A stretch of 55,105 nucleotides of DNA from a virus. The notes under the pieces are model-generated. The model had not been told where the DNA came from. It saw nothing but the letters and a program-made list of their open reading frames with translations, and searched no databases. The position numbers and the translations under genes are program-made. Each line of letters opens with the position of its first letter. The first letter of the stretch is position 1. Shown one piece after another: positions 3,165 through 44,805 of this stretch. Where the stretch lies: positions 1-55,105 of IMG/VR virus record IMGVR_UViG_3300036770_004953; one strand, given 5' to 3'.

Positions 3165-3575
3165 ATGTTCACTACTTACACCAGTCAAATTCTTAGCAAT
3201 CTTGCTAAACAAAGCATTGGTTATGATTATGTTGTAGAAAAAATCTACAATGATGCAACTTTTACGTCTTTTCCCCCTTTTAACTCTTACACTAAAGACA
3301 ATTTCTATTTTATTGAATTTGCCTTATCTGGCTATTCTAGAGATTGTCTGAAAGTCTACACCTCTGACGGTAACCTTGTGGTGGAAGCATCTAAACCTGA
3401 TGCGGAAAAGGACATTGCTTATGTCCATAATGGGATCGCCCGTAGAGCCTTTAAATGGGTTCGAGCCCTTGCTGACAACGTTAACGTGAAATCGGTTAAC
3501 TTTAACGATGGCCTTCTTAAGATCGAATTGGAGCGCATCGAACCAGAGTCACACCGCCGCCGTGATTATCTCTAA
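3165..3575 (+). CDS. hsp20: small heat-shock protein, Hsp20 family
   Basis: A 136-residue protein with an alpha-crystallin fold: 'YFIEFALSGYSRDCLKVYTSDGNLVVEAS', then 'GIARRAFKWVRALADNVNVKSVNFNDGLLKIELER'. The last part contains the family's G-x-L motif (GLLKIEL). Hsp20 is a core gene of T4-like cyanophages and probably holds unfolded virion or replication proteins. The frame is open from 3093, but the ATG at 3165 follows a good ribosome site (TAGGAG, 3152-3157) and begins the conserved part. The C-terminal tail is short, with no clear I-x-I motif. Confidence 0.92.
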   Translation: MFTTYTSQILSNLAKQSIGYDYVVEKIYNDATFTSFPPFNSYTKDNFYFIEFALSGYSRDCLKVYTSDGNLVVEASKPDAEKDIAYVHNGIARRAFKWVRALADNVNVKSVNFNDGLLKIELERIEPESHRRRDYL

Positions 3576-10252: not shown

Positions 10253-11236
10253 ATGCACGACGATAGAATTTATCAGGATCTTGTCAATAGCTATTATAAT
10301 CTTTACACCTTAAATGAGGATGTGGATCCTATTGAGGAAGCAAAAGAAGATGAAGGTCTAACCCCAGGTCAAAAACAAACTGCTCGTCAAAAAAGACAAG
10401 GCGCTGGTGAACTCGAACGTCAATCCAAACATCTTTTTGGTCGCTACCAAAAACAGAAGCCCGTTAAAGAGGAAACTGTAATTGAGTATCTTCTAGATGA
10501 AGGAATTGCTACTACTGTAGATGGTGCAATCGCCATTTATGAACGTATGAGCGATGAGTGGTATGCTGTTATTATGGAAGCCTTGAAAAAAACTGATACG
10601 ATGAATAAATCTGAAATGGCGGATCAGGTATCAACCCTGAGAAAGAAGATGGCGGATCTAACGAAACAACTTGATCCTAAAAATCCAAACCCCAAAATTG
10701 TAGAACAGATTAAAAGTACAAGAGAACAAATCGCTAAGTTTACACAAGGTCTAAGTTCATTAAGAGATGTTTCAGGACCATCTCAACCAAAAAGAATTGC
10801 GGATAAGAAAAAAGAAGAAGATGAAATGACACCAGAGGAGCGCAAGGAATTTAGACAGGAAATGGCAAAAACTCGTACAGAAAGATCAAAAGAAAAAACG
10901 CCAGAGGAAAGAGCAAAAACTAGAGAAAACATTGCAAAGCGTAAGCCTTCAACGGCAGGCAGAACTCCTCAAAGTACGGGTATGAATCTACCTGATCCAT
11001 CTGGGCGTAAAACTGCAAGACAACAAGGTCTCGAAAGACTTGCGAATGCCCCAACCCGCGATACTCCCAGTTACTATACCCCTAGTGGTGAAAGGAGATC
11101 CTTAAATGTTGTAGGAGATACCGAACAAATTCGAACCGATGCTACTCGCAGCGAACGGCGTTCTGGGGCTTCTCAGTCAATCAGTCGCCCAAATACAAGG
11201 GGTGCAGCTGTTCGTGGTTCAACTAGAAACAGATAA
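10253..11236 (+). CDS. virion-associated protein, disordered basic C-terminal half
   Basis: A 327-residue protein. The N-terminus (MHDDRIYQDLVNSYYNLY, then 'PIEEAKEDEG') and a short helical module 'VIEYLLDEGIATTVDGAIAIYERMSDEWYAVIME' (about residues 74-107) are followed by a long charged stretch rich in K, R, E and Q with no fold signal. The same plan is found in the proteins at 12495 and 22594, so the three are distant paralogues. A late promoter lies directly upstream. The composition suggests an internal-head or scaffold-like protein. Sites of the form IxE|A or LxE, used by the T4 gp21 protease, are present (for example PIEE|A). Function inferred only from these traits. Confidence 0.6.
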   Translation: MHDDRIYQDLVNSYYNLYTLNEDVDPIEEAKEDEGLTPGQKQTARQKRQGAGELERQSKHLFGRYQKQKPVKEETVIEYLLDEGIATTVDGAIAIYERMSDEWYAVIMEALKKTDTMNKSEMADQVSTLRKKMADLTKQLDPKNPNPKIVEQIKSTREQIAKFTQGLSSLRDVSGPSQPKRIADKKKEEDEMTPEERKEFRQEMAKTRTERSKEKTPEERAKTRENIAKRKPSTAGRTPQSTGMNLPDPSGRKTARQQGLERLANAPTRDTPSYYTPSGERRSLNVVGDTEQIRTDATRSERRSGASQSISRPNTRGAAVRGSTRNR

Positions 11237-11240
11237 ATAA
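11232..11240 (+). promoter_or_regulatory. late promoter GATAAATAA
   Basis: GATAAATAA overlaps the stop codon of the preceding gene, 21 bases before the next ATG; it is closer to the T4 form TATAAATA. Confidence 0.6.
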
Positions 11241-11261: not shown

Positions 11262-12470
11262 ATGAAGTCTTTTAGAGAATTTATAACCGAGGCCAGAGGT
11301 GGTAAGGCAGCAGAACAAGCCCAAAGAAGCGGTCTTGTATCCGATGGTCACGGTGGTTGGTTAAATCGTCAAGGATTACTTGTTGCCCAGACACAAAAAG
11401 ATAGACTGGTATTCATTAAGCCGGAAACACCAGATAAAACACCACCAGAAGCCGGTGTAGCACCAGCAAGAAGGGATCAACAAACAGTAGCAGTAAAACC
11501 ACCAAAGGCCCAACCAACACCTAAACCGAAGAAACAAAAAGAAGAAGAACCCGTACCTGAGATTGAAAAATCAAAAGGAATTACAGTCGTCTTTGGTAAG
11601 TTTAATCCTCCTACCGCTGGTCACTTAAAACTCCTTAAGAAAGCCAGACAGGTATCAGGTGATACAGAATTAAGAATCTATCCATCAAGAACTCAAAACG
11701 ATCAGAATCCATTAGAACCAAAGAATAAGATTCGTTATATGCGAATTGCATTTCCAGAGTTTGCTGATGAGATTATGAATGATCAGTCAATGACAACCAT
11801 TTTTGATGTACTCCAGCTACTTAATCAAGAGGGTTATAGGAGTGTTAAAATTGTTGTTGGGGCTCAAAGGGAATCTGAGTTTGATAGACTCTCTAATCAA
11901 TACAATGGTGAGCTTTATGAGTATGATGAAATCGAAATCGTCCCTGCAGCCATTAAGGATCCTGATAGTGATGCCTCTGATGCACAATCATCTGGTGCCT
12001 TAAGAAAAGCAGCAGCCGCTAACGATTATTTCAAGTTTAAATCTGGCCTTCCACCTAAAATGCCAGAGAAAGAAAAGCGTAATTTATTCAATGCTGTCCA
12101 AAATTATTATAACAAAGGTTCTGTTCAAGAAACCTGGAAACTGGCACCTGAACTGGATTATAAAAATCTTAGAGAGTCTTATTACAAAGGCGAAATCTTT
12201 AATGTTGGTGACTTAGTTGAAAGTCAAACTACTGGGGTTGTTGGAGTTATTAAACGCCGTGGACCTAATTATGTGATTTGTGTAAATGAAGAACTCAATT
12301 TTATGTTTAAGCCTTGGATTCAAGACATTACAGAATGGACTGATGATTGCGGAACGACTGAAAAGGAAAAAGAAGTAGGTCGTCCAGAACGAGTGAAATA
12401 TTTAATGCGTCTTATGGGTCTTAAAAAGATCGACAATTATCCTGTAAACCTATCTAAAAAATCTAAATAA
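11262..12470 (+). CDS. virion protein with capsid-targeting-like leader and nucleotidyltransferase fold
   Basis: A 402-residue protein with three parts. (1) The first 11 residues, MKSFREFITEA, closely match the T4 capsid-targeting peptide of internal proteins II/III (MKTYQEFIAEA), including the I-x-E|A site cut by gp21 protease. (2) After a proline/lysine-rich linker, residues 106-125 read GITVVFGKFNPPTAGHLKLL, the T/HxGH nucleotide-binding signature of cytidylyltransferase-type enzymes, followed by 'DTELRIYPSRTQN' and 'IVVGAQRESEF'. (3) A C-terminal beta-rich part 'GDLVESQTTGVVGVIKRRGPNYVICV' looks like a small barrel. I infer that it is packaged into the head and released with the DNA. Substrate unknown. 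Confidence 0.75.
   Translation: MKSFREFITEARGGKAAEQAQRSGLVSDGHGGWLNRQGLLVAQTQKDRLVFIKPETPDKTPPEAGVAPARRDQQTVAVKPPKAQPTPKPKKQKEEEPVPEIEKSKGITVVFGKFNPPTAGHLKLLKKARQVSGDTELRIYPSRTQNDQNPLEPKNKIRYMRIAFPEFADEIMNDQSMTTIFDVLQLLNQEGYRSVKIVVGAQRESEFDRLSNQYNGELYEYDEIEIVPAAIKDPDSDASDAQSSGALRKAAAANDYFKFKSGLPPKMPEKEKRNLFNAVQNYYNKGSVQETWKLAPELDYKNLRESYYKGEIFNVGDLVESQTTGVVGVIKRRGPNYVICVNEELNFMFKPWIQDITEWTDDCGTTEKEKEVGRPERVKYLMRLMGLKKIDNYPVNLSKKSK
12463..12470 (+). promoter_or_regulatory. late promoter CTAAATAA
   Basis: CTAAATAA ends in the stop codon of the preceding gene, 25 bases before the next ATG. Confidence 0.65.
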
Positions 12471-12494: not shown

Positions 12495-13940
12495 ATGAGC
12501 ACTGAATACACGGTCGGTTTTCAACAAATGCGAGAGATTTATGTTGAGTCTATCGCACCTCAGAATTTGTTAGAGAAAAAGAAGGACAAAGAAGAAACTA
12601 AGAAAACTACTACAGATGATGAAAATGAATTAGATCCTGTCGGACAGGAAGACGAAGACATTAATAATAATGGTAAGAAAAATGATAAAAATGATAAATA
12701 TCTTTTAAATCGTAGACGTGTTCGCTCTAGAATTATCAATTCTGAAAAGAAAATCGACGAAGACACAGACTTCGCCCCAGAACGTCTAGAGTATTATGAT
12801 TGGCGTTCAACTATTTCTGAGGACATTCAGGCTGCAATTGATGAGCTAGACGGTGACCAAATCCAAGAAAAACCAGTCAATAATTATGCAAAAGGTAAAA
12901 ATGGAAAATCAGTTGTAACGATCAATCCTACGATTAACATTGGTGAGGCTGCTGCATCCCTTGGAGGTGAGCTACTAATGGAAAGTGAGCTTGAGATTGA
13001 TGATGTTATTGAAATCGCTGCTGGTTATTTTTATGATCAAGGCCTAACTCCTGAGGGTGTTGAAATTGTTATTGAAGAACTGGGTGAAGAGGCTTTTTAT
13101 CAATTTGCCATTGAACTTACTGAAAATTACATTCTCACAGAGGCCCGCCGCAGTGGTCGTATTGAGCCTGTTACTAAAACGGGTAAATCGGTCGCTGAAC
13201 TTAAAGGTGGTGCAAAGACATCCGCTATTAATCGTCTAAGAAAAGAGAAGCAATCACGTAGAGAAGCAGAATCACAGGCAGCTCAAAAACCTTCTGGTAT
13301 GACTGGTGCTTTAAGAGCCCAATCAGAACTCGCAAGAAAGAGTGCTATTAAAACCGCCAGACAACAGCAACCGCAAACTAATGCTTCTCCAACTAGAAAG
13401 AAGAGAGGTATTCTTGATGTTGTTGCCGCTGAGATTCTTAAAGGTATGGAGAGAGATAAGGCAGCCCGCGAAAAGTTTGCTCAATCCAAAACAGGTCAGG
13501 CACTAAGAACTGCTGGTGGTATCGTATCTGGTGCAGCTGGAGCAGCATCCCGTGCTATGGAATCTCCTATCGTTCAAAAGGCAGAGCGTAACGTCACTGC
13601 AGCAGCACTAAAAGGCACTCGTAAAGTTGCTAGAGGCGCCCGTGATCTTGCTGCCAAAGAGGTAGGCCGCCGCAGGGCCTATGCCGAAGAAGTGGAACAA
13701 CTAGATGAAAAATCTGTTTCTACTCAACAACAAAAACTGTTTGGTTCTGCCTTATCTGTTAAGAGAGGTGAAACCCCAAGAAGTGAAGTAAGTAAGGATG
13801 TTCTAGAAATTGTTGATTCAATGTCTGAAACTGAAATTCGCAAGTTTGCAAAGACTAAGCACAAAGGTCTGCCTAAAGTTAAAGAGCCAATGAATGAAAG
13901 TTTATCTTATGAAGACATTCTTCGCTTTATGAAGAAGTGA
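12495..13940 (+). CDS. virion-associated protein, acidic N-terminus and basic repeats
   Basis: A 481-residue protein. Residues 28-63 are lysine/aspartate/asparagine-rich (KKDKEETKKTTTDDENE and after). A helical module 'DVIEIAAGYFYDQGLTPEGVEIVIEELGEEAFYQFAIELTE' corresponds to the module of the 10253 and 22594 proteins. It is followed by long basic, alanine-rich sequence and a C-terminal helix 'MSETEIRKFAKTKHKGLP...EDILRFMKK'. The mixture suggests a head-interior or scaffold-associated protein that contacts DNA. Expression from the late promoter at 12463 fits. No catalytic motif is visible. Confidence 0.55.
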   Translation: MSTEYTVGFQQMREIYVESIAPQNLLEKKKDKEETKKTTTDDENELDPVGQEDEDINNNGKKNDKNDKYLLNRRRVRSRIINSEKKIDEDTDFAPERLEYYDWRSTISEDIQAAIDELDGDQIQEKPVNNYAKGKNGKSVVTINPTINIGEAAASLGGELLMESELEIDDVIEIAAGYFYDQGLTPEGVEIVIEELGEEAFYQFAIELTENYILTEARRSGRIEPVTKTGKSVAELKGGAKTSAINRLRKEKQSRREAESQAAQKPSGMTGALRAQSELARKSAIKTARQQQPQTNASPTRKKRGILDVVAAEILKGMERDKAAREKFAQSKTGQALRTAGGIVSGAAGAASRAMESPIVQKAERNVTAAALKGTRKVARGARDLAAKEVGRRRAYAEEVEQLDEKSVSTQQQKLFGSALSVKRGETPRSEVSKDVLEIVDSMSETEIRKFAKTKHKGLPKVKEPMNESLSYEDILRFMKK

Positions 13941-16132: not shown

Positions 16133-17113
16133 ATGGATCACATTGATGAAAAGTACATAACTCTCTTATCTGGACGGCTAAATAAACTCAAGAAAGTTAA
16201 AAACGGGCTTTATAATTGCAGATGCCCCCTTTGCGGGGATTCTCAAAGAAATAAATCAAAGGCACGGGGATACTTTTATCAGGTAAACAACAATACGAAT
16301 TATAAATGCCATAACTGCGGCGCCAGTATGTCATTTAATAATTTCCTAAAGATTACCGATTCAGTTTTACACGCGCAGTTTTGTCTCGATAAATACACCG
16401 CAGGATTCACGGGTAAGAATTTTCCAGCAGAAGAACCAGAATTCTATACCAGTCAACCAGTATTTAAAGAAAAGCTTGATTTACCTAGGGCATCTGAAAA
16501 CCCAAACGTAAAAAGTTATCTTGAGTCAAGAAAGCTAGATCCAGATAAGTTTTATTATGCAAAAGAGTTTAAGAAATGGGTAAATTCTTTTAAACCCACG
16601 TTTAATGAAAAGGCGCTTTATTATGAGGAGGAACGAATTGTTATACCACTCCATTTAAACAAAAAAATTATTGGGATCCAAGGAAGAGCAATCGGCCCAT
16701 CTGATGTAAAGTATCTCACCATAATGCTTGATGAATCAACACCTAAAGTTTATGGTTATGATCGAGTAGATTTATCTAAATTTGTTTATGTTTTAGAAGG
16801 TCCATTTGACTCTGAATTTGTTGATAATTCTATCGCAATGTGTGGGGCGGATGTTAACATCTCGGATCTAAATATCTCTTACCCGGTCTATGTTTATGAC
16901 AATGAACCACGAAACATCGACATTCTTAAAAGGATGTTAAAGGTTATAGAACGTGGAGATTCAATTGTCATCTGGCCCGAAGCGAATCATTTAAAAGACA
17001 TCAATGAGATGGTTATCTCAGACATTGATGTTATGAGTCTTATTGAAAAAAATACATTCAATGGACTAGAAGCAAGTTTAAAGTTTAATTTTTGGAAAAA
17101 ACGAGACCTATGA
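16133..17113 (+). CDS. gp61: gp61 DNA primase
   Basis: A 326-residue primase. The N-terminal zinc finger is 'CRCPLCGD...YKCHNCGAS' (CxxC and CxxC pairs, about residues 27-66), which recognises the priming site. The TOPRIM core is 'VYVLEGPFDSEFV' (catalytic E) with 'PVYVYDNEPRN' downstream (the D-x-D-like motif). It makes the lagging-strand pentamer primers together with the gp41 helicase. The stop overlaps the nrdA start by ATGA, coupling primer synthesis and dNTP supply genes. Confidence 0.93.
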   Translation: MDHIDEKYITLLSGRLNKLKKVKNGLYNCRCPLCGDSQRNKSKARGYFYQVNNNTNYKCHNCGASMSFNNFLKITDSVLHAQFCLDKYTAGFTGKNFPAEEPEFYTSQPVFKEKLDLPRASENPNVKSYLESRKLDPDKFYYAKEFKKWVNSFKPTFNEKALYYEEERIVIPLHLNKKIIGIQGRAIGPSDVKYLTIMLDESTPKVYGYDRVDLSKFVYVLEGPFDSEFVDNSIAMCGADVNISDLNISYPVYVYDNEPRNIDILKRMLKVIERGDSIVIWPEANHLKDINEMVISDIDVMSLIEKNTFNGLEASLKFNFWKKRDL

Positions 17114-19842
17114 TTTCACAAGATATTAAAGTACAAAAGCGTAATGGCGCAATTGAACCCCTGATGCTGGATAAGCTGCATCTGATGGTTGAAGAGGCTT
17201 GCAAGGGTCTCTCAGGGGTCTCTGCATCGCAAGTAGAGATGAGTTCGGGCATCCAGTTTTATGACGGGATTTCCACCGAAGACATTCAAAAGGTTCTGAT
17301 CAAATCTGCATCGGATCTTATTAGTCTGGAAAGTCCTAACTATCAATTCGTTGCTGCTCGCCTTTTGCTTTTCTCTATCCGTAAGCAGATTTATGGTGGC
17401 CGAATTGATTTACCCCATCTATCGGAACACATCCGCCGTTGTGTGGATGTAGGTGTTTATGATGATCAAGTTTATAGTAATTACACCGAGGAAGAGATTG
17501 ATCGAATCAATTCTTTCATTGATCACGATCGAGATTTTATCTTTACCTTTGCAGGATTATCTCAGGTTGTTGATAAGTATCTTGTTCAAGATAGGTCCAC
17601 AGGACAGCTTTTTGAGACACCACAATTTATGTACGTGATGATCTCTTTGACTCTTTTTGCCAATTATCCCAAAGAGACAAGGCTGAATTATGTCAAGCGT
17701 TATTACGATGCTATCAGCAAGCACAAGATCAACATCCCAACACCTATTATGGCGGGGGTTAGAACCAAACTGAAGCAGTTTGCATCTTGTTGCCTTATTG
17801 ATGTGGATGATAGCCTTAAGAGCATCTATTCATCTGATAGTGCAATGATGGAGTACGTTTCTGGTCGGGCGGGTATTGGCCTGAACCTAGGTAGAATTCG
17901 GGGTATTGGTTCCAAAATCCGCAACGGTGAGGTTATTTCAACGGGTGTTATTCCCTTTGTTAAAAAGTTTGAGTCATCCCTTAACTCTTGTCACCAGGGA
18001 GGTGTAAGAAAGGGTAGTATGACCATTTACTTCCCAATCTGGCACCAAGAAATTGAGGACATTATCGTACTCAAGAATAATAAAGGAACAGAAGAAAACC
18101 GTGCTCGTAAGGTTGATTATGGTATTCAGCTATCCAAGATTTTTTATGAGAGGTTTATCAATAATCAAGAGATCACTCTATTCTCACCTCATAATGTTCC
18201 AGGACTTTATGAATCCTTTGGTATGCCAGGGTTTGATGAACTATACGTCAAGTATGAGAACGATCCATCTATTCCAAAGAAAAAAATCAGTGCCCAGACA
18301 CTTATTTTAGACTTGCTTAAAGAACGGGCAGAAACGGGTCGAATTTATCTGATGAACATCGACCACGCTAATTCTCATAGCCCATTCAAAGAACAGATTA
18401 CAATGAGTAATCTTTGTGTAGCAGGGGATACCAAAATTATTATTACTTATCCTGAACCAAAATACAATGATGTTGGTGAGATTTTTGATTGGGATGAAAC
18501 GATCGCCCAGATTGAAATTAGAGATTTAGAAAGTTACTTGGATGACCGAGAGAACTACGTTAGGTCTTCTGATTTAGACTCATCTAAGTTTCCTTTTGTA
18601 GAAGTCTTATGTTATAATTTTGATGAGGAATTTCGTGTATTTTCGGAAGTTACCAACTTTGCCCAGACTTCAGAGAAGGCCAAGGTTATAAAGATTACCG
18701 ACACCACTAGAGGAAACACCCTTACGGTAACCCCTGATCACGAGATTTATACTACCAATCGAGGTTATGTCAAGGCCGGTGAACTGGAGCCAACGGATAA
18801 ACTATTTTATGCAACAAGTCACATTAAGTATGAGTATGAGTGTTTTGAGTTAGACATTCAACATCTAGAGGAAGAGATTCCTGTTTATGACATTACAGTA
18901 AAGGATAGGCATAACTTCTTTGCCAATGACATTCTCGTTCATAACTGCACAGAGATTCTTATTCCTACTGATCCTATTCAAAAGCTAGAGGGTGAAGGAC
19001 AAATTGCTCTTTGTATCCTTTCTGCAATGAATGTTGGTAAAATCAAGTCTGATGAAGAACTTGAGGAAATGTGTGATCTGTCTGTAAGAGCCCTTGATGA
19101 GTTGATTGATTATCAGGATTATCCTGTTAATGCTGCAGAGTATTCAGCAAAGGCCAGAAGAACCTTAGGTGTTGGTATTATTGGACTTGCTCATTATTTC
19201 GCAAAACTTGGATTTAAGTATGAGGATCAAGCCGCAACTGATGCAGCCCACGGATTAGCCGAGAGTATTCAGTATTATCTTCTTAAGGCATCTAACCAGT
19301 TAGCCAAAGAAAAAGGTGTTTGTGAGTTTTATGATAAGACAACTTATTCTGAGGGTATCCTTCCGATTGATACTTATAAGAAAGAAGTTGATGAAATCTG
19401 TTCACAACCTCTTCAGCACGATTGGGAAGAGTTACGCCAAAGCATTCTTACTTATGGTCTGAGACACTCAACCCTCTCCTGCGCAATGCCAAGTGAAAGT
19501 TGCCTTTTCTGGGAACACAAAATCAAAACAACCGCTGGCTTTATGGATTTCCATCAAATTGCTGAGCACGGTGGTTTAGATTGGAGAGAGATTGAGATGA
19601 ATGATCAGATTGGATGGTATGATTTGAATACCCCAATTGAAGTGGAAACTCAAGACGGCAATAAAACCGTTGACAAGCTCTATTTCAATGGTCATAAGGA
19701 GGTTGCAACCATCACCTTTGAGGATGGCAGGGTTATCAATTGCACCCCAAATCACAAGTTTCTTGTCAAACTGGAGGATGGTTCAACAATCTGGAAACGG
19801 GTTTATGAACTGAACGAGAATGATGACGTAGTTGAATTTTAA
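17110..19842 (+). CDS. nrdA: NrdA N-terminal part, with a mini-intein and an N-terminal split intein
   Basis: A 910-codon gene for class Ia ribonucleotide reductase large subunit. The extein starts with an ATP-cone-type region ('VQKRNGAIEPLMLDKLH') and carries 'ASCCLIDVDDSLKSIY' (first active-site cysteine, E. coli C225) and 'ALCILSAMNVG' (C462). A mini-intein (18415-18945) sits just before the catalytic thiyl-radical cysteine of 'SNLCTEI' (E. coli C439). After 'CAMPSES' the frame runs into a second intein and stops 113 residues later. Without inteins this part gives 620 residues and the next gene 145: together 765, the size of E. coli NrdA (761). Start ATG 17110 overlaps the primase stop; activity requires protein splicing in cis and in trans. 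Confidence 0.95.
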   Translation: MISQDIKVQKRNGAIEPLMLDKLHLMVEEACKGLSGVSASQVEMSSGIQFYDGISTEDIQKVLIKSASDLISLESPNYQFVAARLLLFSIRKQIYGGRIDLPHLSEHIRRCVDVGVYDDQVYSNYTEEEIDRINSFIDHDRDFIFTFAGLSQVVDKYLVQDRSTGQLFETPQFMYVMISLTLFANYPKETRLNYVKRYYDAISKHKINIPTPIMAGVRTKLKQFASCCLIDVDDSLKSIYSSDSAMMEYVSGRAGIGLNLGRIRGIGSKIRNGEVISTGVIPFVKKFESSLNSCHQGGVRKGSMTIYFPIWHQEIEDIIVLKNNKGTEENRARKVDYGIQLSKIFYERFINNQEITLFSPHNVPGLYESFGMPGFDELYVKYENDPSIPKKKISAQTLILDLLKERAETGRIYLMNIDHANSHSPFKEQITMSNLCVAGDTKIIITYPEPKYNDVGEIFDWDETIAQIEIRDLESYLDDRENYVRSSDLDSSKFPFVEVLCYNFDEEFRVFSEVTNFAQTSEKAKVIKITDTTRGNTLTVTPDHEIYTTNRGYVKAGELEPTDKLFYATSHIKYEYECFELDIQHLEEEIPVYDITVKDRHNFFANDILVHNCTEILIPTDPIQKLEGEGQIALCILSAMNVGKIKSDEELEEMCDLSVRALDELIDYQDYPVNAAEYSAKARRTLGVGIIGLAHYFAKLGFKYEDQAATDAAHGLAESIQYYLLKASNQLAKEKGVCEFYDKTTYSEGILPIDTYKKEVDEICSQPLQHDWEELRQSILTYGLRHSTLSCAMPSESCLFWEHKIKTTAGFMDFHQIAEHGGLDWREIEMNDQIGWYDLNTPIEVETQDGNKTVDKLYFNGHKEVATITFEDGRVINCTPNHKFLVKLEDGSTIWKRVYELNENDDVVEF
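18415..18945 (+). other. mini-intein in NrdA (177 aa), inserted before the radical cysteine
   Basis: Protein-splicing element: it begins with Cys in 'CVAGDTKIIIT' (block A), has block B 'TLTVTPDHEIYTTN' (TxxH), and ends in 'VYDITVKDRHNFFANDILVHN' (blocks F and G, H-N), with Cys as the +1 residue of the C-extein. At 177 residues, with no LAGLIDADG or HNH motif, it is a mini-intein that has lost any homing endonuclease. All residues needed for splicing are visible. Confidence 0.95.
19501..19839 (+). other. N-half of a naturally split intein (113 aa)
   Basis: It begins at Cys 19501 ('CLFWEHKIKTTAG') straight after the NrdA sequence 'CAMPSES'. Block B is 'VINCTPNHKFLVK' (TxxH), and the half ends '...WKRVYELNENDDVVEF' at a TAA. 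The first block differs from the usual C-L-x-G-D-T start. The other half is encoded by the next gene. Confidence 0.93.
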
Positions 19843-19875
19843 TTAACAATCCTTAACCATAACCTAAAGAGAAAA

Positions 19876-20418
19876 ATGAAAGTAAAATCAATCCAGTTTA
19901 ACGGCGACATTCTCCCCACCTATGACATTGAGGTACCAGAGGTCCATCATTACAATTGTGAGGGATTAGTTTCCCACAATAGTTCAGTTTGCTCTAACAG
20001 CACCAACGGAATCGAACCTCCTAGAGGATTCTTATCAATCAAAAAGTCTAAGAAAGGTCCCATCAAGCAGATCGTTCCTCAGTATTCAACACTCAAGAAT
20101 AATTACACCCTGCTATGGGATATGAAGAGCAATGAGGGTTACTTCAACATTGTTGCAGTATTCCAAAAGTTCTTTGATCAAACAATCAGTGCTAACTGGA
20201 ATTATAATCCAGAGATGTATCCTAATAATGAAGTGCCAATGAGTGTTATTGTAAGAGACTTCCTTTCTCATTACAAGAAAGGCCATAAAACGGCTTATTA
20301 TCATAACACTTATGATGGAAAATCTGACGAACCCAAGGAAGATTCGACAGAATTAAATAATCTTGTAGAAGAGTTATTACAAGCCGATGACGAAGTATGT
20401 GACAGTTGCGCAATTTGA
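19876..20418 (+). CDS. nrdA: C-half of split intein fused to NrdA C-terminal part
   Basis: A 180-residue gene starting 33 bases after the stop of the N-part, with its own ribosome site (AAAGAG, 8 bases before ATG). Residues 1-35 are the intein C-half, MKVKSIQFNGDILPTYDIEV then 'HHYNCEGLVSHN', ending in H-N before Ser. Residues 36-180 continue NrdA: 'SSVCSNSTNGIEPPRGF' (E. coli '...SSQISNATNGIEPPRGY'), the 'YTLLWDM' segment, and the C-terminal redox pair in 'EVCDSCAI'. Trans-splicing with the preceding protein restores NrdA across the phosphate-binding loop 'MPSE|SS'. No endonuclease gene lies between the halves. Confidence 0.94.
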   Translation: MKVKSIQFNGDILPTYDIEVPEVHHYNCEGLVSHNSSVCSNSTNGIEPPRGFLSIKKSKKGPIKQIVPQYSTLKNNYTLLWDMKSNEGYFNIVAVFQKFFDQTISANWNYNPEMYPNNEVPMSVIVRDFLSHYKKGHKTAYYHNTYDGKSDEPKEDSTELNNLVEELLQADDEVCDSCAI

Positions 20419-20429
20419 GGAGATTAAAA

Positions 20430-22544
20430 ATGATTAAGGGAATGACCGTTTTCAATACTGATGATGTTAATACAACAAGATCCCCAATGTTCTTCGGACC
20501 TCCTCTGGGGGTCCAAAGATACGATGTTTATAAGTACCCTGAGTTTGATAAGCTAACCCAACAACAGCTAAGTTTTTTTTGGAGACCTGAAGAAGTATCC
20601 CTTCAGAAGGATCGCTCTGATTATCTGACTCTAAGACCAGAGCAAAAGCACATCTTTACCTCTAATTTAAAGTACCAGATTCTTCTTGATAGTGTTCAAG
20701 GCAGAGGCCCTGGAATGGCCTTTATTCCTTATTGCTCGCTACCTGAACTGGAGTCTTGTATGACAGTGTGGGAATTTATGGAGATGATTCATTCCCGCTC
20801 TTATACCCACATTATTAAGAATGTTTATGCAAATCCATCAGAAGTATTCGATACGATTATCAATGATGAGATGATTCTAGAAAGAGCATCATCTGTCACT
20901 GAATCTTATGATGATTTTATTAATTCTGCCCAGCAGTATGGTAGCACTGAATTATGGAAATTTGCTAATGAAGGGGTCGATCTGGGCAAAGACGAACGCC
21001 ACGAACTCAAGAGAAAACTCTATCGGGCTGTTATGAATGTTAACATCCTAGAGGGTATTCGTTTCTATGTAAGTTTCGCTTGCTCATTTGCCTTTGGTGA
21101 GCTAAAACTTATGGAAGGATCTGCAAAGATTATTTCCTTGATTTCAAGAGACGAGTCTTGTTTTGTTAAAGGGACCGAGATCCTAACCACAACTGGTTGG
21201 AAAAAGTTCGAAGACCTTAATAAGACAGAACTTGTGGCCCAGTATAAGGCTGATGGCAGTATTGAGTTCGTAAGACCATCTCATTACACCAGAAAGCATC
21301 ATAAGGGTCTGATCTACCAATTTTCAGATAAAAACCATCAATTTAATCAGGCAGTAACCCCTGACCATAGAATCATCTGGAGAGATGCAGTCTCTGGTGA
21401 AATTATGGAAAATACTGCAGAGAAGTATAAACCTACTTCGCTAAAAGAGTTTATTTCAACTGGATTTAAGAATGAAGGTAGAGATTCACTAACTTATGAT
21501 GAAAGACTGAAGATCGCAATTCAGGCCGTGGGTCGTCATAACATTTATGATGATGCCATTAGACTTAACTCTTTAGATCATGAACAAATTGATAGATTGG
21601 AGCACATTTTAATTAGTCTTGATTATGATTATGTTATTGAAGGATCGCAGAGTGATAGTGATCAAGAAATTGATTTTTCATTAGGAAATAGGTTTGATTG
21701 TAGCATAGAAACTGTTGTTGATACTAATGGTCTAGAAGATTTTTCTTGGGTTGATCTTAATAGTGTAAGCGGTCATTGGTGCCGCGAGTTTATTGAGGAA
21801 GTTTCCAAGTGGGATCGAAATCACGTTATGAAAATGGATTATGGCATCAATTTTCATTTAACAGTTAAAGGGACACAAGCTGCAGATACTCTACAAGCTG
21901 CAGATACTCTACAAGCTATTGCATCACTATCCGGTTGGACGTGTTATAGAGATAATCCATTTGATGATTGTTATTATTTCAGCATTAGAACTCAAAAAGA
22001 AACTTATAGTTCTGAAACATCTGATAATGTTGTTAAAACTTATGATTATGATGATGAGGTATTCTGTGTTACCGTTCCTAGCGGAATGATTGTTGTTCGT
22101 TATGATGATAAGGTTGTTGTCTCTGGTAACTGTCATCTTAACATCACTCAAAAAATTCTTAATAAGTGGAGTAAGGGTGATGATCCTGAAATGATTCAGA
22201 TTATCAAGGAAGAAGAGCCTCGTGTTTATAAGATGTTTGAGACCGCCGTTAATGAAGAAAAGCGGTGGGCGACTTATCTCTTTAAGGGTGGTTCTATGAT
22301 CGGTCTAAATGATAAATTACTCTGTAATTATGTTGAATGGATTGCTAATCGTAGAATGAAGGCAATCGGCCTAAGACCTGTTTATGAAATTCCCGCCAAG
22401 AATAACCCACTTCCTTGGACTGAACACTGGCTCAATAGCCGAAATGTTCAAGAAGCCCCAATGGAAACGGAAAAAGAAAGTTATCTTGTTGGTGCCATTA
22501 AACAGGACATTGAGGTTAATGCATTTGCGGACTTTAAGCTCTAA
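20430..22544 (+). CDS. nrdB: NrdB radical-generating subunit with an intein
   Basis: A 704-codon gene, which gives 380 residues after removal of the 324-residue intein (E. coli NrdB: 376). The extein has 'VWEFMEMIHSRSYTHII', which holds the E115, H118 and radical Y122 equivalents; 'EGIRFYVSFACSFAFGE' (E204 region); and 'SRDES|CHLN', where E238 and H241 equivalents are separated by the intein. The C-terminus 'IEVNAFADFKL' is the peptide that docks into NrdA. The frame opens at 20406, but ATG 20430 after TTGAGGAGAT is the likely start. The gene follows the NrdA C-part by 11 bases. Confidence 0.95.
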   Translation: MIKGMTVFNTDDVNTTRSPMFFGPPLGVQRYDVYKYPEFDKLTQQQLSFFWRPEEVSLQKDRSDYLTLRPEQKHIFTSNLKYQILLDSVQGRGPGMAFIPYCSLPELESCMTVWEFMEMIHSRSYTHIIKNVYANPSEVFDTIINDEMILERASSVTESYDDFINSAQQYGSTELWKFANEGVDLGKDERHELKRKLYRAVMNVNILEGIRFYVSFACSFAFGELKLMEGSAKIISLISRDESCFVKGTEILTTTGWKKFEDLNKTELVAQYKADGSIEFVRPSHYTRKHHKGLIYQFSDKNHQFNQAVTPDHRIIWRDAVSGEIMENTAEKYKPTSLKEFISTGFKNEGRDSLTYDERLKIAIQAVGRHNIYDDAIRLNSLDHEQIDRLEHILISLDYDYVIEGSQSDSDQEIDFSLGNRFDCSIETVVDTNGLEDFSWVDLNSVSGHWCREFIEEVSKWDRNHVMKMDYGINFHLTVKGTQAADTLQAADTLQAIASLSGWTCYRDNPFDDCYYFSIRTQKETYSSETSDNVVKTYDYDDEVFCVTVPSGMIVVRYDDKVVVSGNCHLNITQKILNKWSKGDDPEMIQIIKEEEPRVYKMFETAVNEEKRWATYLFKGGSMIGLNDKLLCNYVEWIANRRMKAIGLRPVYEIPAKNNPLPWTEHWLNSRNVQEAPMETEKESYLVGAIKQDIEVNAFADFKL
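21159..22130 (+). other. intein in NrdB with degenerate LAGLIDADG domain (324 aa)
   Basis: It starts at Cys 'CFVKGTEILTTTGWKKFEDL', has block B 'AVTPDHRIIW', and ends 'VVVSGN' before Cys. Block G is therefore G-N instead of H-N, a known variation. In the middle 'LKIAIQAVGRHN' and 'WCREFIEEVSKWDRN' correspond to the two LAGLIDADG motifs. The first lacks the acidic residue (AVG for ADG), so homing cleavage is probably lost. The domain also holds a tandem 18-bp duplication at 21875-21910. Confidence 0.9.
21875..21910 (+). repeat. tandem 18-bp repeat inside the NrdB intein
   Basis: ACAAGCTGCAGATACTCT occurs twice (21875-21892, 21893-21910), adding six residues (QAADTL) in frame. Such slippage is tolerated in a decaying endonuclease domain. 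Confidence 0.95.
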
Positions 22545-26909: not shown

Positions 26910-29900
26910 ATGAATACTCTCCCCTCAATTGCCTATTTACGGTCAGCTGTTCCTGGAAAAGTACCTTCCATTGATAAGCTTCCCTTTGGGCAATTTGCAA
27001 TTAACACCTTTGACGGGGATGTATTCGTTAAGCGTTTTAGAACTGGAATCGGCACTGATGTAGTAAGAGTAGGTGCCGGCGCCACTACAACAAACCTTAT
27101 CTGGGTAACAAAGGATGGTAAGGATACCAACTCAGGTAAAAAGCAAGGTGATGCAAAGGCAACCATTAAGGCGGCTGTTGCTGATTCAAAAGAAGGGACT
27201 GTTATTCGTGTAACAGCAGGTATTTACGAAGAAGATAATCCGATTAAAGTACCACCTCAAGTAAGTATTGTTGGTGATAGTCTTAGGGAAGTTGATGTAA
27301 TTCCTAAGAATGATGCCGACTTATTCTATGTGGGTCGTGGTAACTACATTACTGGTATGTCCTTTAGGAAAGAGGGCAATACCTATCCTCTTGCTATTGC
27401 AGCATTTGATCCAGACGATAAGCAATACATTAACCAGTCAACTTACGTTCAGAACTGCACTAACTTTATTCCAAATAGCATTGGTCTAAAGATTGATGGC
27501 AATAATGCCTTAGGACCATTGAAGTCAATGGTTCTTGATAGCTTTACCCAATACAATGCAAACGGAATTGGTATTTCGATTACCAATGAAGGTTATGCTC
27601 AGTTGGTGTCACTGTTCACAATTTGCTCTGATACCTCAGTTTATTGTGGCACTGGTGGGGCCTGTGACCTTACCAACTCCAACTCATCTTTTGGCAATAA
27701 GGCTCTTGTTGCTAATGGTGTTGGTCCTTTAAAGTACACTGGAATCCTAACAACTGCAATCCAACCAAGTGACTTTATTATTGAGGTTGATGTTTCCACT
27801 CCAACTTTCAATGTAACAGACGCTGATTATAATAACGAAACGGGTGTAGTCCAGATTTATACTGATGCGCCTCACCTATTCCAAAAAGGAATGAGCATCA
27901 ACATTACAGGTCTTGCTTTTACCTGTAATTCATCTCAACCTTTCCCCAATTCTGGGCGTTATCAAGATGCCTCTAATCTAATTATTGCCAACAAACAAGA
28001 GATTGTTGATAAGTCCCTTGCATCTATTGCCTTAGATTATCCTGATTTCTACTTCCCTGGTGATGCTCAAACCACAATCTATTCTCGCTATAAAGATTCT
28101 TATCGACTCATTCAAAAGAATCGTAGTGAGATTACCGAAAAGGCTCTTGCATCCATTGCGATTGGATTCCCTGACTTTTATTTCCCTGGAGATAGTCAAA
28201 CCAATACCCGTTCACAATTCTTTGATTCTTATCGCCTTATCCAACAAAATAAAGATGAAATCGTAGGACTAGCCTGGACTGCTATTATTAATCAGTATCC
28301 TGCTCTTTCTGCAACTGAATCAAAATGCAGAAGAGACCTTGGTTATTTTGTTGATGCTATTTCAACCGACATCTTTACTGGTGGTAATAGGTATTCAAGA
28401 GATTATACAAAATTCTACTTTAATCCTGATGGAACCCCAATCAGCAATGGGATTAATGATGTAGAAGAAATCAATGGTGCATTGGTTGGCTTTACTTCAG
28501 CCAGAGAGCTGATGAAGTCTGCTATTACGAACCAACTGACGATTAAGGATTTAACCATCACCCCTGATCCGAATCCATTAAACGGCCCTGTTTCTAATAC
28601 AAACCCAACAGCCTGTGATGGGGTTCAGCATCAGATCAATACTCTTGTTGGTATTGTTACGACTGTTATTGGAACATCTAACATTGGTTTCCTGACAACT
28701 TTTAGCGAGAATACCGGGACCTTTACTCCTGGTTCATCCAAGTGTTTAAGAGACCTTGGTTATTTTGTTGATGCTGTTTCAACTGACATTTTCCTAGGTG
28801 GTAATAAGTATTCAAGAGATTTCACAAAACAATACTTCAATAATGCTGGCATCGCAATCACCAATGGTCTAGTTGGCGAAGAATCACAATCTGTTTATGC
28901 CTTTAATTCAGCCAAAGATTTAATGAAGGCTGCAATTACAAACCAGCTGAATTTCCAAGACCGCACAATCACTGCTGATCCTTCGCCTTCATCAGGTATT
29001 GTAACCAACACCAATCCTAATTCTTGTGCAAACGTACAATCAACTCTTGATACTCTTGTTGGTATTGTAACCACGGTTATTGGAACCAACAACATCGGAT
29101 TTTTAACGACTTTCAGTGAAAATTCCGGCACGTTTATCCCTGCTGGTGAAAACAAGTGCCGTAGAGACATTGGTTACATCGTTGATGCCTTAGCAGTCGA
29201 TCTTAAGTTTAGTTCCAATGCTAACATTATCAATGCTGCTAATTCTTATTTTGATGCCAATGGCAATCCTATTTCCAATGGTCTTGTTGGTGAAGAAGCT
29301 GAATCCGTAAGAGCTTTTATCGGAGTCAGAGAATACTCAAAATTAGCAATCAATAATCAACTCAATGTTAAGGACTTTACCCTGATTGCCGATCCTGTTA
29401 CGGGTTCTAATAACAGCGAAGATTCCTGCTCAAACGTTAAAACAACGATTGATAATCTTATTGGCATCCTTACAACTTCTGTTGGTCTAGGTTCCACACC
29501 ATCATCTTCTATTTTCCTACCTCCAAGTGTTCTTTTCTATCCAAGTGGTCAAAAAGGATACATTTTTGAGGTTATTGATACTGCTCCTGGTCGTTATCTA
29601 GATGCTGCGGATCTCATCAATGCAAACAGAAAAGAAATCCTTGATAAGTCTCTTGTTGGCATTGCTTTATCCTATTCTGATTTTGTTTATCCTAATGACC
29701 CAGCGGATGATTTAAGCTATCGCTTCAAAGATGCCACAAGATTGATCCTTAAGAACAAATCTGAAATCGTGGGTATTGCCTGGACGAATACTTACAATAA
29801 TTATCCTTGTAACCTTCAGACTATTCCTAATGTAGAATCAAAATGTAAGCGAGACCTTGGTTACTTTGTTGATGCAGTAACAACTGATCTTTATACTGGT

Positions 29901-31394
29901 GGTAATTATTATAGCATCGAGTTTGTTAAGCAATACTTTGAGGGTTCAACCCCTATTTCTAATGGTCTTGTTGGTGAGGAAGTGGAATCCATTTATGCTT
30001 TCCATCAGGCAAGAGACTTGATGAAGCAGGCCTTGACTAATCAACTAACTTATCAAGAACTAGGCATCAGCAGCGGCCCCTCTGTTTATAATGGTGTCGG
30101 CGGAAATGTTGGTGTAACAAGCTCTCTTGCTTGCACCGATGTTCAAAATGCTGTTGATACCCTTGTCGGAATTATCACAACTGTTATTGGAGCAGGAAGC
30201 ACAAGCACTCTCAATAACATCACCGTCAATCCTGGTATTTTCCTGACTGGTGAAAATGTTTGCCGTAGAGACCTAGGTTATGTCTTAGATGCTATTATTA
30301 GTGATCTACGGTCTTATACAAATGAAAAAACCCTAGAGGCAAGAGATGCATACTTCGATCAAAGCGGTATCGTTGGTATTGCCTCAGAAAGAGTTCAATC
30401 TATTGTTGGATTTACTTCTTTAAGAGAGTATGCAAAACTAGCAATCAATAATCAACTCAATGTTAAGGACTTTACCCTGATTGCTGACCCTCTAACCAAT
30501 TCAAACAATGATCCTGCATCTTGTGCGAATGTTAAGACCTTTATTGATAACCTAGTTTCTTATCTGATTACGGATTTAACCAATCAAACCAAGGGTAATT
30601 ATCCAACCACCTATCCCAGCCAATCATTCACTGTTAATGTGGGTGTTTCAACGATTCAACATTATTATGCCTTTGGTGGTAAGGTTACAAACTACATCAG
30701 CAGACCTTATGATGGCCAGGCCTTATACTTTGGTGAACTGTATTCTGATGTTGCTAGTGTACGGGTTATTGATGGTGGATCTGGTTATCAAGAATCACCC
30801 GAATTCTTCTTCTCCGAACCATCAACTGAATGGGGTATTCCTGCTCAGGCCGTTGCAACAATCCGCAATGGTTCTATTACTGAGGTCAACCTAGTTTCCA
30901 GTGGCCGGGGTTATCTGACACCACCAACAGTAACCTTAAGTACACCTAATGCCGGAATTACGACTGCGGTTCTTGAGATTGAAATGAAGCCCACCTACTT
31001 CACTGTAGCAAGCTCAACTCCAATCAGTGCATCTGGTATTACGACAATCACTCTAAACGAAAACATTCCTTATGCTATTGGTGTCGGGACGATCTTAAAA
31101 TTCTATAAGCAAAGTCGAATCCTTGCATCCAGCCATTGTATGGAATACATCGGAACTGGTGTAGACATTGAAAAGGCTATTCCCGTTCTTGGCGGTGTTC
31201 CGATTCAAGAAAATGAGACGATCTCATCAAATGGTGGTCTGGTTGTTTATACGACAACCGATCAGGCAGGTAACTTTAGAATTGGTGATGGTGTTGTTAT
31301 TAATCAGAATACTGGTAGAATCGGTGGAACTGATTATACAAAGAGTCTTTTTGCGACAATGACTCCATTCATTCTATCCCTAGGAGGAGACTAA
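26910..31394 (+). CDS. giant tail/baseplate structural protein with internal repeats
   Basis: A 1494-residue virion protein. Residues about 60-260 look like a right-handed beta-helix ('DGKDTNSGKKQGDAKATIKAAVADSKEGTVIRVTAGIY', 'VSIVGDSLREVDVIP', 'GLKIDGNNALGPLKSMVLDSF'). The middle holds five repeats of about 138 residues starting with 'CRRDLGYFVDAISTD' or a near copy (at 28327, 28741, 29155, 29848, 30259), each with 'NQL...D', 'SC..V...ID.LVGI' elements. They are joined by shorter 'RYxDAxxLIxANKxEI' units. The C-terminal part is beta-rich ('TTDQAGNFRIGDGVVINQNTGRIGGTDYTKSLF'). It belongs to a cyanophage family of baseplate-attached fibres. Late promoter 50 bases upstream. Confidence 0.75.
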   Translation: MNTLPSIAYLRSAVPGKVPSIDKLPFGQFAINTFDGDVFVKRFRTGIGTDVVRVGAGATTTNLIWVTKDGKDTNSGKKQGDAKATIKAAVADSKEGTVIRVTAGIYEEDNPIKVPPQVSIVGDSLREVDVIPKNDADLFYVGRGNYITGMSFRKEGNTYPLAIAAFDPDDKQYINQSTYVQNCTNFIPNSIGLKIDGNNALGPLKSMVLDSFTQYNANGIGISITNEGYAQLVSLFTICSDTSVYCGTGGACDLTNSNSSFGNKALVANGVGPLKYTGILTTAIQPSDFIIEVDVSTPTFNVTDADYNNETGVVQIYTDAPHLFQKGMSINITGLAFTCNSSQPFPNSGRYQDASNLIIANKQEIVDKSLASIALDYPDFYFPGDAQTTIYSRYKDSYRLIQKNRSEITEKALASIAIGFPDFYFPGDSQTNTRSQFFDSYRLIQQNKDEIVGLAWTAIINQYPALSATESKCRRDLGYFVDAISTDIFTGGNRYSRDYTKFYFNPDGTPISNGINDVEEINGALVGFTSARELMKSAITNQLTIKDLTITPDPNPLNGPVSNTNPTACDGVQHQINTLVGIVTTVIGTSNIGFLTTFSENTGTFTPGSSKCLRDLGYFVDAVSTDIFLGGNKYSRDFTKQYFNNAGIAITNGLVGEESQSVYAFNSAKDLMKAAITNQLNFQDRTITADPSPSSGIVTNTNPNSCANVQSTLDTLVGIVTTVIGTNNIGFLTTFSENSGTFIPAGENKCRRDIGYIVDALAVDLKFSSNANIINAANSYFDANGNPISNGLVGEEAESVRAFIGVREYSKLAINNQLNVKDFTLIADPVTGSNNSEDSCSNVKTTIDNLIGILTTSVGLGSTPSSSIFLPPSVLFYPSGQKGYIFEVIDTAPGRYLDAADLINANRKEILDKSLVGIALSYSDFVYPNDPADDLSYRFKDATRLILKNKSEIVGIAWTNTYNNYPCNLQTIPNVESKCKRDLGYFVDAVTTDLYTGGNYYSIEFVKQYFEGSTPISNGLVGEEVESIYAFHQARDLMKQALTNQLTYQELGISSGPSVYNGVGGNVGVTSSLACTDVQNAVDTLVGIITTVIGAGSTSTLNNITVNPGIFLTGENVCRRDLGYVLDAIISDLRSYTNEKTLEARDAYFDQSGIVGIASERVQSIVGFTSLREYAKLAINNQLNVKDFTLIADPLTNSNNDPASCANVKTFIDNLVSYLITDLTNQTKGNYPTTYPSQSFTVNVGVSTIQHYYAFGGKVTNYISRPYDGQALYFGELYSDVASVRVIDGGSGYQESPEFFFSEPSTEWGIPAQAVATIRNGSITEVNLVSSGRGYLTPPTVTLSTPNAGITTAVLEIEMKPTYFTVASSTPISASGITTITLNENIPYAIGVGTILKFYKQSRILASSHCMEYIGTGVDIEKAIPVLGGVPIQENETISSNGGLVVYTTTDQAGNFRIGDGVVINQNTGRIGGTDYTKSLFATMTPFILSLGGD

Positions 31395-44202: not shown

Positions 44203-44429
44203 AACACTCATTAATAAAACAACTAATAAAAACAGAAACCTGGAGAGATTGGAAACTTATTGTTCGTGGTGCTTATACTGGCTTTACATACACCATAATT
44301 AGTCCCCACTGGAGAAAACTCATTAATGATTATTCAGTGCCCAATTACATAGAAGATTATGTTGAGGCAAAAGTTTTCTTTATAACAAATAAAAACGAAT
44401 TTAACTTAGACTTTACCAATTATGATTAG
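44199..44429 (+). CDS. DWRDW-family micro-protein, copy 5
   Basis: A 76-residue protein starting with GTG at 44199 (or ATG-less overlap): 'KHSLIKQLIKTETWRDWKLIV', 'FTYTIISPHWRKLINDYSVPNYIEDYVEAKVFFITNKNEFNL'. The most diverged member; the W-R-D-W and the 'P.YI.DYV.A..F' pattern are kept. Overlaps the next gene by 8 bases. Confidence 0.6.
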   Translation: MKHSLIKQLIKTETWRDWKLIVRGAYTGFTYTIISPHWRKLINDYSVPNYIEDYVEAKVFFITNKNEFNLDFTNYD

Positions 44430-44805
44430 CAAACCAATTCTATCAAAAAGTTCAGTAAAAATGAGTTACTTTGAGTATCTGTTTACTCATTGCATCCCAA
44501 CGGGATTTCAATCATTCCGTAGGGCAATTTATTTTTGGATTAAACTCCTTCAAGGCGACATTTCTGATTATGCCTTCTACAAAGAAAAGTTTAATGACAC
44601 AGATGAGGATCTCTTTCAAATGGTAAGAGAATCTTTCTGGGCAGAACTGGAAGATGATGTGCTACCCAAGGAATTCTTAGAAGGTCTTATGCAACAAGTC
44701 GAGGATATTAACAATGGAACGGTCGAACTACATACCTTCAGGAGTTTTGATGAATTTATGAAAGAGCTGGATGAAATTGAAGCTGAAAACGATTATGAAA
44801 TTTGA
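44422..44805 (+). CDS. hypothetical acidic protein
   Basis: A 127-residue protein: 'MISKPILSKSSVKMSYFEYL', then 'FRRAIYFWIKLLQGDISDYAFYKEKFNDTDEDLFQMVRESFWAELEDDVLPKEFLEGLMQQVEDI'. Helical and acidic, no recognised family. A second ATG at 44461 (MSYFEYL) is possible. It overlaps the phosphoesterase gene by 11 bases. Confidence 0.55.
   Translation: MISKPILSKSSVKMSYFEYLFTHCIPTGFQSFRRAIYFWIKLLQGDISDYAFYKEKFNDTDEDLFQMVRESFWAELEDDVLPKEFLEGLMQQVEDINNGTVELHTFRSFDEFMKELDEIEAENDYEI

Follow-up and report, generated by a model that had tools for sequence, protein, structure and literature searches.

In the internal protein IPIII of bacteriophage T4, the first 10 residues suffice for packaging, and within the T4 leader targeting depends on residues 4 and 7 and processing on residues 8 and 10, according to the accessible part of a review (PMC9026906). 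The products of ipII and ipIII begin with MKTYQEFIAEA and that of ipI with MKTFKEFTSTT (T4 sequence NC_000866.4). T4 Alt is made with an N-terminal propeptide of 7 residues and is also processed at its C-terminus, and does not carry this leader as far as the same source describes it (PMC9026906).

In cyanophages, the core gene T4-GC190 encodes a putative citidylyltransferase that was found in virions of S-SM1 and, in an earlier study cited in the same paper, went undetected in virions of S-PM2 (Sullivan 2010, PMC3037559, available part). The NMNAT of S-SCSM1 (ORF91, a relative aligned here) was likewise reported in virions, in a paper whose accessible text also cites S-CBWM1 and another phage (PMC9602691). 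From the tables available, ORF154 of S-CREM2 is on the virion list with three unique peptides (Table 3, PMC10665884), and S-SZBM1_140 was detected by two peptides with an emPAI of 0.26, compared to 27.64 for the major capsid protein (Table 1, PMC9146016). Because of these reports for S-SM1, S-SCSM1, S-CREM2 and S-SZBM1, the virion association of this nucleotidyltransferase (NTase) family is already known. The original prediction for the gene described here, that capsid-targeted enzymes were not known with this fold, was therefore wrong, T4-GC190 having been in print since 2010 (PMC3037559). The accessible text of the four virion papers names no targeting leader, and no paper on such a leader in cyanophages was found in the open-access literature, which is no proof of absence.

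The DNA analysed here, called the window below, is a 55,105-base IMG/VR virus record. Its ORF at 11262..12470 (+) encodes 402 amino acids, begins MKSFREFITEARGG and belongs to the cyanophage 'cytidyltransferase'/'NMNAT' family, T4-GC190. It is likely to encode an internal head protein, i.e., a cargo enzyme, of a T4-type marine phage, which would be packaged by its leader, cut and injected. The gene's own late promoter would drive synthesis late in infection, and the first 10 residues would dock the enzyme into the prohead core as a T4-type capsid-targeting sequence (CTS). A gp21-type prohead protease would cut after E10, and the mature enzyme would stay in the DNA-filled head and enter the next cell with the DNA. 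In the new host, the nucleotidyltransferase could act on a host metabolite ahead of any phage gene expression; as a first guess, the NAD pool may be topped up or protected in this way. Packaging through the leader is very probable, and cleavage after E10 is probable.

Layout of the gene and its surroundings

The gene and its direct neighbours comprise the following features.

10253..11236 (+): upstream neighbour ORF, 327 aa, weakly similar to S-SCSM1 gp089 (E 2e-4)
11232..11239 (+): late-promoter-like site GATAAATA, ending 22 nt before the ATG (ATAAATA at 11233-11239)
11262..11291 (+): capsid-targeting leader MKSFREFITE, residues 1-10, from T4 comparison and conservation
11291/11292 (+): predicted prohead-protease cut, E10/A11, from the leader sequence
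11301..11414 (+): mini-domain 'GLVSDGHGGW..G..VAQT', residues 14-51, block pLDDT 73-87
11424..11573 (+): variable, low-confidence linker, residues 55-104, entropy 2.81 bits, pLDDT mostly below 50
11574..12119 (+): HIGH-superfamily nucleotidyltransferase domain, residues 105-286, from Pfam PF01467, phrog_395 and fold match
11595..11624 (+): motif GKFNPPTAGH, residues 112-121, from the sequence
11988..12005 (+): second motif SSGALR, residues 243-248, mostly SASKMR in the family
12153..12335 (+): SH3/KOW-like C-terminal domain, residues 298-358, from its own model
12336..12467 (+): C-terminal tail of lower conservation, residues 359-402
12495..13940 (+): downstream neighbour ORF, 481 aa, with a C-terminal DUF3008

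The predicted T4-type leader on this ORF is borne out: MKSFREFITEA is identical to the start of T4 ipII and ipIII at 7 of 11 positions, among them F7, I8, E10 and A11. The leader traits of a T4-type CTS protein are present, with an aromatic or hydrophobic residue at positions 4 and 7 and I/L-x-E at positions 8-10. GKFNPPTAGH, which had also been pointed out, indeed lies downstream of the linker, and phrog_3561 (PHROGs) matches residues 2-64. Within the window, the strict leader pattern M[KR]x[FYLIM]xxF[ILMVF]xE is found at 1 of 160 first ATGs of ORFs compared to none of 318 internal ATGs. In the collected loci, many of which were chosen for carrying the NTase gene, it occurs at 105 of 4517 first ATGs compared to 2 of 11,269 internal ones.

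The cyanophage late consensus is presumably NATAAATA. An ATAAATA-type site is found 10-60 nt before the start codon in 64 of 115 NTase-family genes and 29 of 91 other leader ORFs, compared to 213 of 1222 control ORFs of the same loci; since the sequences are related, the pooled p (7e-17) overstates this enrichment. The T4 form TATAAATA is present upstream of only 2 of the 115 NTase starts. Over the whole window ATAAATA is not enriched (12 seen vs 16.3 expected), so only its placement before gene starts is telling.

In the window, S-SCSM1 and S-SM2, the NTase gene lies in an island between the MazG-region and the primase/RNR genes. The S-SCSM1 record gives virion labels to gp089, gp282, the NTase, gp280, gp279 and gp277, amid unlabelled replication genes, and the downstream ORF of the window is the positional counterpart of gp280, with a 42-aa match (E 7e-12). 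The scanned ORFs of the window, a 55 kb fragment, include no recognised gene for a capsid protein or prohead protease; a gp21-type prohead protease is annotated in the relatives S-CREM2, S-SCSM1 and S-SZBM1.

Elsewhere in the window, a split intein divides NrdA (17092-20418) over two ORFs. The first has an N-intein at its end (Intein_splicing, residues 857-914) and a further HINT match at residues 525-618; the second opens with a C-intein-like stretch ending in VSHN, followed by the NrdA C-terminus. Split NrdA inteins are known in marine phages. NrdB (20406-22544) has an insertion of about 310 residues that looks intein-like by eye (CFVKGTEIL ... VVVSGN/C). The 1494-aa ORF at 26910-31394 is probably structural; its match to Pfam Phycobilisome (residues 433-494, E 2.9e-7) is perhaps a chance or convergent motif.

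The leader in relatives, in virions and on other proteins

Relatives were found by tblastn in 521 of 50,697 phage records, mostly from phages of Synechococcus and Prochlorococcus, and 371 of them have at least 80% query coverage, all below 60% identity. In a spread sample of 60 relatives, the match starts at residue 1 in 41, at residue 16 in two and at residue 104 or later in 17, six of the latter being jumbo phages of enterobacteria and Pseudomonas. Among 15 hand-picked isolates in which the NTase gene was inspected, the canonical leader is present in S-SCSM1, S-SM2, S-CREM2, S-CRM01, Syn9, P-RSM3, S-B68 and ME01 (MKGFSNFLIEA), and a variant one residue shorter in Melnitz (MKKFSEIIEA) and S-SZBM1 (MRFRQFIIEA); it is absent from the NTase of P-HM1, S-CAM4, CBB and S-8S56. 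In the 105 sequences compared (104 loci and the window), 86 of 91 NTase ORFs carry the strict leader, a share that is biased upwards because most of these loci are the best 80 of 542 tblastn-confirmed relatives, chosen by an alignment that includes the leader. The five exceptions are in loci L006, L007, L019, L021 and L023. The L006 gene is a 913-aa ORF in which an N-terminus that is P-loop kinase-like by eye is fused to the NTase, with the shortened leader MKFKEFLLQE.

A 39-row tblastn alignment made with no leader filter shows conservation of 90% or more at M1, K2, F7 and E10. A second set, dereplicated and with five leaderless sequences dropped, comprises 74 leader-bearing sequences, of which 71 have F at position 4, 67 have L or I at position 8 and 66 have A at position 11, with free variation at positions 3, 5, 6 and 9; the invariance of F7 and E10 in this set is imposed by the selection filter. 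The mean entropy in these 74 sequences is 1.00 bits for the leader, 2.81 for the linker, 1.06 for the NTase domain and 0.96 for the C-terminal domain, so that the linker is the most variable part and the NTase columns are conserved about like the leader. As read from these alignments, the family keeps the positions which T4 genetics found important. In S-CREM2, S-SCSM1 and S-SZBM1, the major capsid protein has L-T-E or L-A-E followed by A at residues 50-59. By analogy with T4 gp23, whose propeptide border is placed at 65 residues in the accessible part of the review (PMC9026906), this may be a cut site near a gp23-like border.

In S-CREM2 the strict leader is found on 4 of 219 proteins, and all four are among the 52 virion proteins (p = 0.0029). 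These are gp6, a SAM lyase (PF23780, E 2.3e-19), the small protein gp13, gp14, which is kinase-like under the Pfam cut-off, and gp154, the NTase. In S-SCSM1 two of 282 proteins have the leader and one of them is in the virion, which alone is non-significant (p = 0.31). Taking both phages together, the virion lists contain 5 of 6 leader proteins and 94 of 495 others (p = 0.0014), and with the NTases set aside 3 of 4 leader proteins (p = 0.025). The one leader gene found by DNA pattern in S-SZBM1, S-SZBM1_191, is absent from the virion list. The virion presence of NTase relatives would be explained by the leader, since it offers a packaging mechanism; packing in the head, which had been proposed as a possibility, is now supported as probable by the reports of relatives in virions.

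S-SZBM1_191 seems to belong to a family of conserved small leader proteins with a SESVNISGDFNGNLY- or SESVNISGDFNG-type start, which also occurs in S-SCSM1 (44215-44535), in DSL-LC03 (118339) and in locus L160. The L160 relative is phrog_1742 (PHROGs), to which the isolate proteins were matched by eye. The small SESVNISGDFNG-start protein is undetected in the S-SCSM1 and S-SZBM1 virion lists, which counts against packaging through the leader, as do the NTases that lack a leader, the low peptide numbers and the missing detection in S-PM2. The gp12 of S-CREM2 (L010:7704-10313, minus strand), annotated as Cas9 and reported in virions, has a leader-like motif about 17 residues in. Its name 'Cas9' was rejected: it has no Pfam match and only a match to phrog_3561, of unknown function.

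Besides on the NTase, the leader occurs on many other proteins. A DNA pattern for it gave 16 matches in 12 complete phage records, compared to two with a reversed control pattern. A stricter leader-only pattern, scanned over IMG/VR viral contigs, gave at least 124 matches in 120 loci, from at least 122 distinct proteins. Of the 124 matches listed, none is ended by a stop within 50 codons, and 12 run off the contig. As a reference, 79 of the 120 loci contain 28,455 ATGs, of which 5500 are open for 62 codons. With the leader removed, the proteins of at least 40 residues fall into at least 34 sequence families among the matches listed, of which 24 are single.

Of the 48 leader ORFs that have no NTase motif, 20 were scanned in Pfam and nine in PHROGs. 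Most of the 20 had no Pfam match above cut-off; the families recognised among the matches listed are GNAT (PF13508, above cut-off), DPBB (PF03330), DUF6267 and DUF5661. PHROGs added a deoxyribonucleotidase-like protein (phrog_2643, E 1e-21) and an RNA 2'-phosphotransferase-like protein (phrog_5470, E 7e-4). The isolate S-CRM01 has a leader-bearing GNAT-like gene, under the Pfam cut-offs. Kinases of S-CREM2, S-CRM01 and ME01, and phrog_3561-type proteins of S-CRM01 (128) and ME01, also have the mini-domain (residues 14-51) following a leader, and the composite of leader and 'GHGGW' mini-domain is shared by at least three types of cargo.

These findings tip the balance slightly towards the leader being a portable packaging code across T4-type phages, cultured and uncultured, joined to dozens of unrelated proteins that would be head-loaded and injected. 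Its putative cargo would include the NMNAT/PPAT-type transferase, SAM lyase, kinases, GNAT and KptA/ART-like proteins, as well as the deoxyribonucleotidase-like protein, the DPBB protein, DUF6267 and others. If this is true, the injected arsenal of a phage can be read from its genome by the leader alone.

Outside the cyanophages, the 16 matches of the DNA pattern include one gene of T4 and two of Citrobacter phage CkP1. T4 61.1 (NC_000866.4, 18966-19130) starts with MKTFKEFIKE and adjoins the primase, on the side where cyanophages keep the NTase island. CkP1 has two small hypothetical proteins (L106:3001-3216 and 3274-3510) with the leaders MKSFQEFITEA and MKSFKEFITES. Their genes stand beside 57A, where T4 has ipI, and these leaders, the closest seen in an enteric T4-like phage, are closer to that of the window than T4's own. 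At L128:3736-4529, two leader genes lie in tandem, one for an RNA 2'-phosphotransferase/ART-like protein and then one for a GNAT acetyltransferase.

Enzyme domain, substrate class and alternative readings

Residues 110-206 match Pfam CTP_transf_like (PF01467) with 23.5 bits, compared to a cut-off of 21, and the NTase domain matches phrog_395 (E 9e-73). By profile score, HxGH-like and S..R motifs and fold, the domain belongs to the HIGH superfamily. F114, N115, P116, P117, H121 and R248 are invariant in alignment A2, and S243 is conserved at 90% or more. Of 79 relatives, 76 retain both catalytic motifs; the second reads SSGALR in four of the 79, including the lineage of the window, and SASKMR in most. 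The enzyme is very probably catalytically active.

The model of the whole protein has a mean pLDDT of 74.7 and a pTM of 0.47, with NTase blocks mostly at 80-95 with dips. In Foldseek, NadM and NadD are the top matches of this predicted model (best E 1e-6). In VIA-align, PPAT, NadD and NMNAT score about equally with it (Z 12.5-13.8; 143-167 residues aligned at 2.9-4.1 Å and 12-18% identity). NCBIfam NMNAT models match many members, most best matches being NMNAT, and these scores stay far under the equivalog cut-offs (TIGR00482, 18.5 vs 112.45 bits; TIGR01526, 23.1 vs 341.15 bits). Sequence searches of the PDB found no convincing match (best E 0.35 and 0.12).

Because of its motifs and fold matches, the protein is called an adenylyltransferase-like enzyme, most likely of the NMN/NaMN or phosphopantetheine type as far as the models indicate. 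The original prediction spoke of a cytidylyltransferase signature: the HIGH-family nucleotidyltransferase motifs and fold stand, while the cytidylyltransferase label was dropped as a function, the nearest listed models and structures being adenylyltransferases (NMNAT, NadD, PPAT). No cytidylyltransferase chain, glycerol-phosphate cytidylyltransferase included, is among the fold-search rows listed, although a missing row is no exclusion, and nothing was found in support of CTP as a substrate. An NMN-type substrate is quite possible, something else rather less so, and a PPAT-type substrate is unlikely.

Folded alone, the C-terminal domain has a mean pLDDT of 78.9 and resembles SH3/KOW/Tudor barrels (Foldseek best E 2.4e-3; VIA Z 7.8 at best). 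As this barrel arrangement is common, only a fold class is claimed for the domain.

The protein might also be an ordinary late metabolic enzyme, whose N-terminus serves expression or interaction in the cell and whose virion detections reflect carry-over of an abundant protein. Carry-over is raised as possible by the authors of the S-SCSM1 and S-CREM2 proteomes themselves, in the accessible text (PMC9602691, PMC10665884), virion NTases are represented by few peptides, and among the virion proteins of the S-SCSM1 record is also the translational repressor. However, the NTase was detected in four isolates, the same leader stands on unrelated virion proteins, and its conservation tracks T4 targeting genetics, the leader being kept while the adjoining linker varies; carry-over is therefore held to be improbable. 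Packaging could also be real while the enzyme is of secondary importance, the SH3/KOW domain and the leader doing the work of a core protein or a DNA-binding protein of the head. DSL-LC03 fits such a role, as it keeps the leader with the C-terminal SH3/KOW domain (90 aa) and has lost the NTase, and so do P-HM1 and S-CAM4, in which a leader-like start travels with a separate SH3/KOW protein and the NTase is leaderless. This possibility is nevertheless very improbable given that nearly all relatives retain both catalytic motifs and that conservation in the NTase columns is close to that of the leader.

A third proposal leaves the NTase as the working part and places it in the infected cell, where it would be a genuine NMN adenylyltransferase serving NAD salvage by the phage (NadV/NadM type). 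The NCBIfam and Foldseek matches favour NMNAT and NadM/NadD, and phage NAD salvage against NADase defences has been described (PMC9503650, available part). On the other hand, NadV (PF04095) is absent in 10 of 10 complete related records, with the control positive in 6 of 14 genomes, so that a complete NAD-salvage pathway was rejected; moreover, the scores lie far under the equivalog cut-offs and PPAT structures score equally. The proposal is thus considered rather unlikely, and the reading as a packaged, injected cargo enzyme is retained.

Comparison with known systems

The protein resembles T4 IPII and IPIII, and also IPI, in having a leader of 10-11 residues with matching key positions and an E/A cut site, and in the arrangement of a short leader ahead of an unrelated mature part, but it differs in size: the small T4 IPs have 95-193 aa, and the cargo of the window is a 402-aa multi-domain enzyme. 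Like T4 Alt, a packed and injected ADP-ribosyltransferase, it is predicted to be a head-packed enzyme, but fold and chemistry are different: an Alt-type ART domain was not found in the window protein, for which Pfam gives only PF01467.

Within its family, the window protein is 39-40% identical to the homologs of S-SM2 and S-SCSM1 and thus belongs with the cyanophage virion NMNAT/cytidyltransferase; unlike most relatives, its lineage has SSGALR instead of SASKMR. It shares the fold and both HIGH-family motifs with NadM, NadR, NadD and PPAT (CoaD), but is only about 12-19% identical to them and adds the leader, the mini-domain and the SH3/KOW domain. No Nudix or kinase domain was found in the window copy. 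The nucleotidyltransferases of the jumbo phages CBB, RaK2 and GAP32 have a homologous NTase domain; unlike the window protein, the CBB copy is leaderless and has 179 aa.

The fold itself is therefore not new in virions, and it is the T4-type leader as the cause, on many cargoes, that was not found in the open-access literature. Metabolic enzymes have been listed in several cyanophage virion proteomes whose authors could not rule out the charge of carry-over. The T4-type leader gives a mechanism and predicts the exact mature N-terminus, and it ties an NTase, a SAM lyase and a kinase together in one phage, S-CREM2. If this is true, the leader that T4 uses for its internal proteins would be a simple genome-mining handle for the first-moment, host-acting proteins of abundant marine phages.
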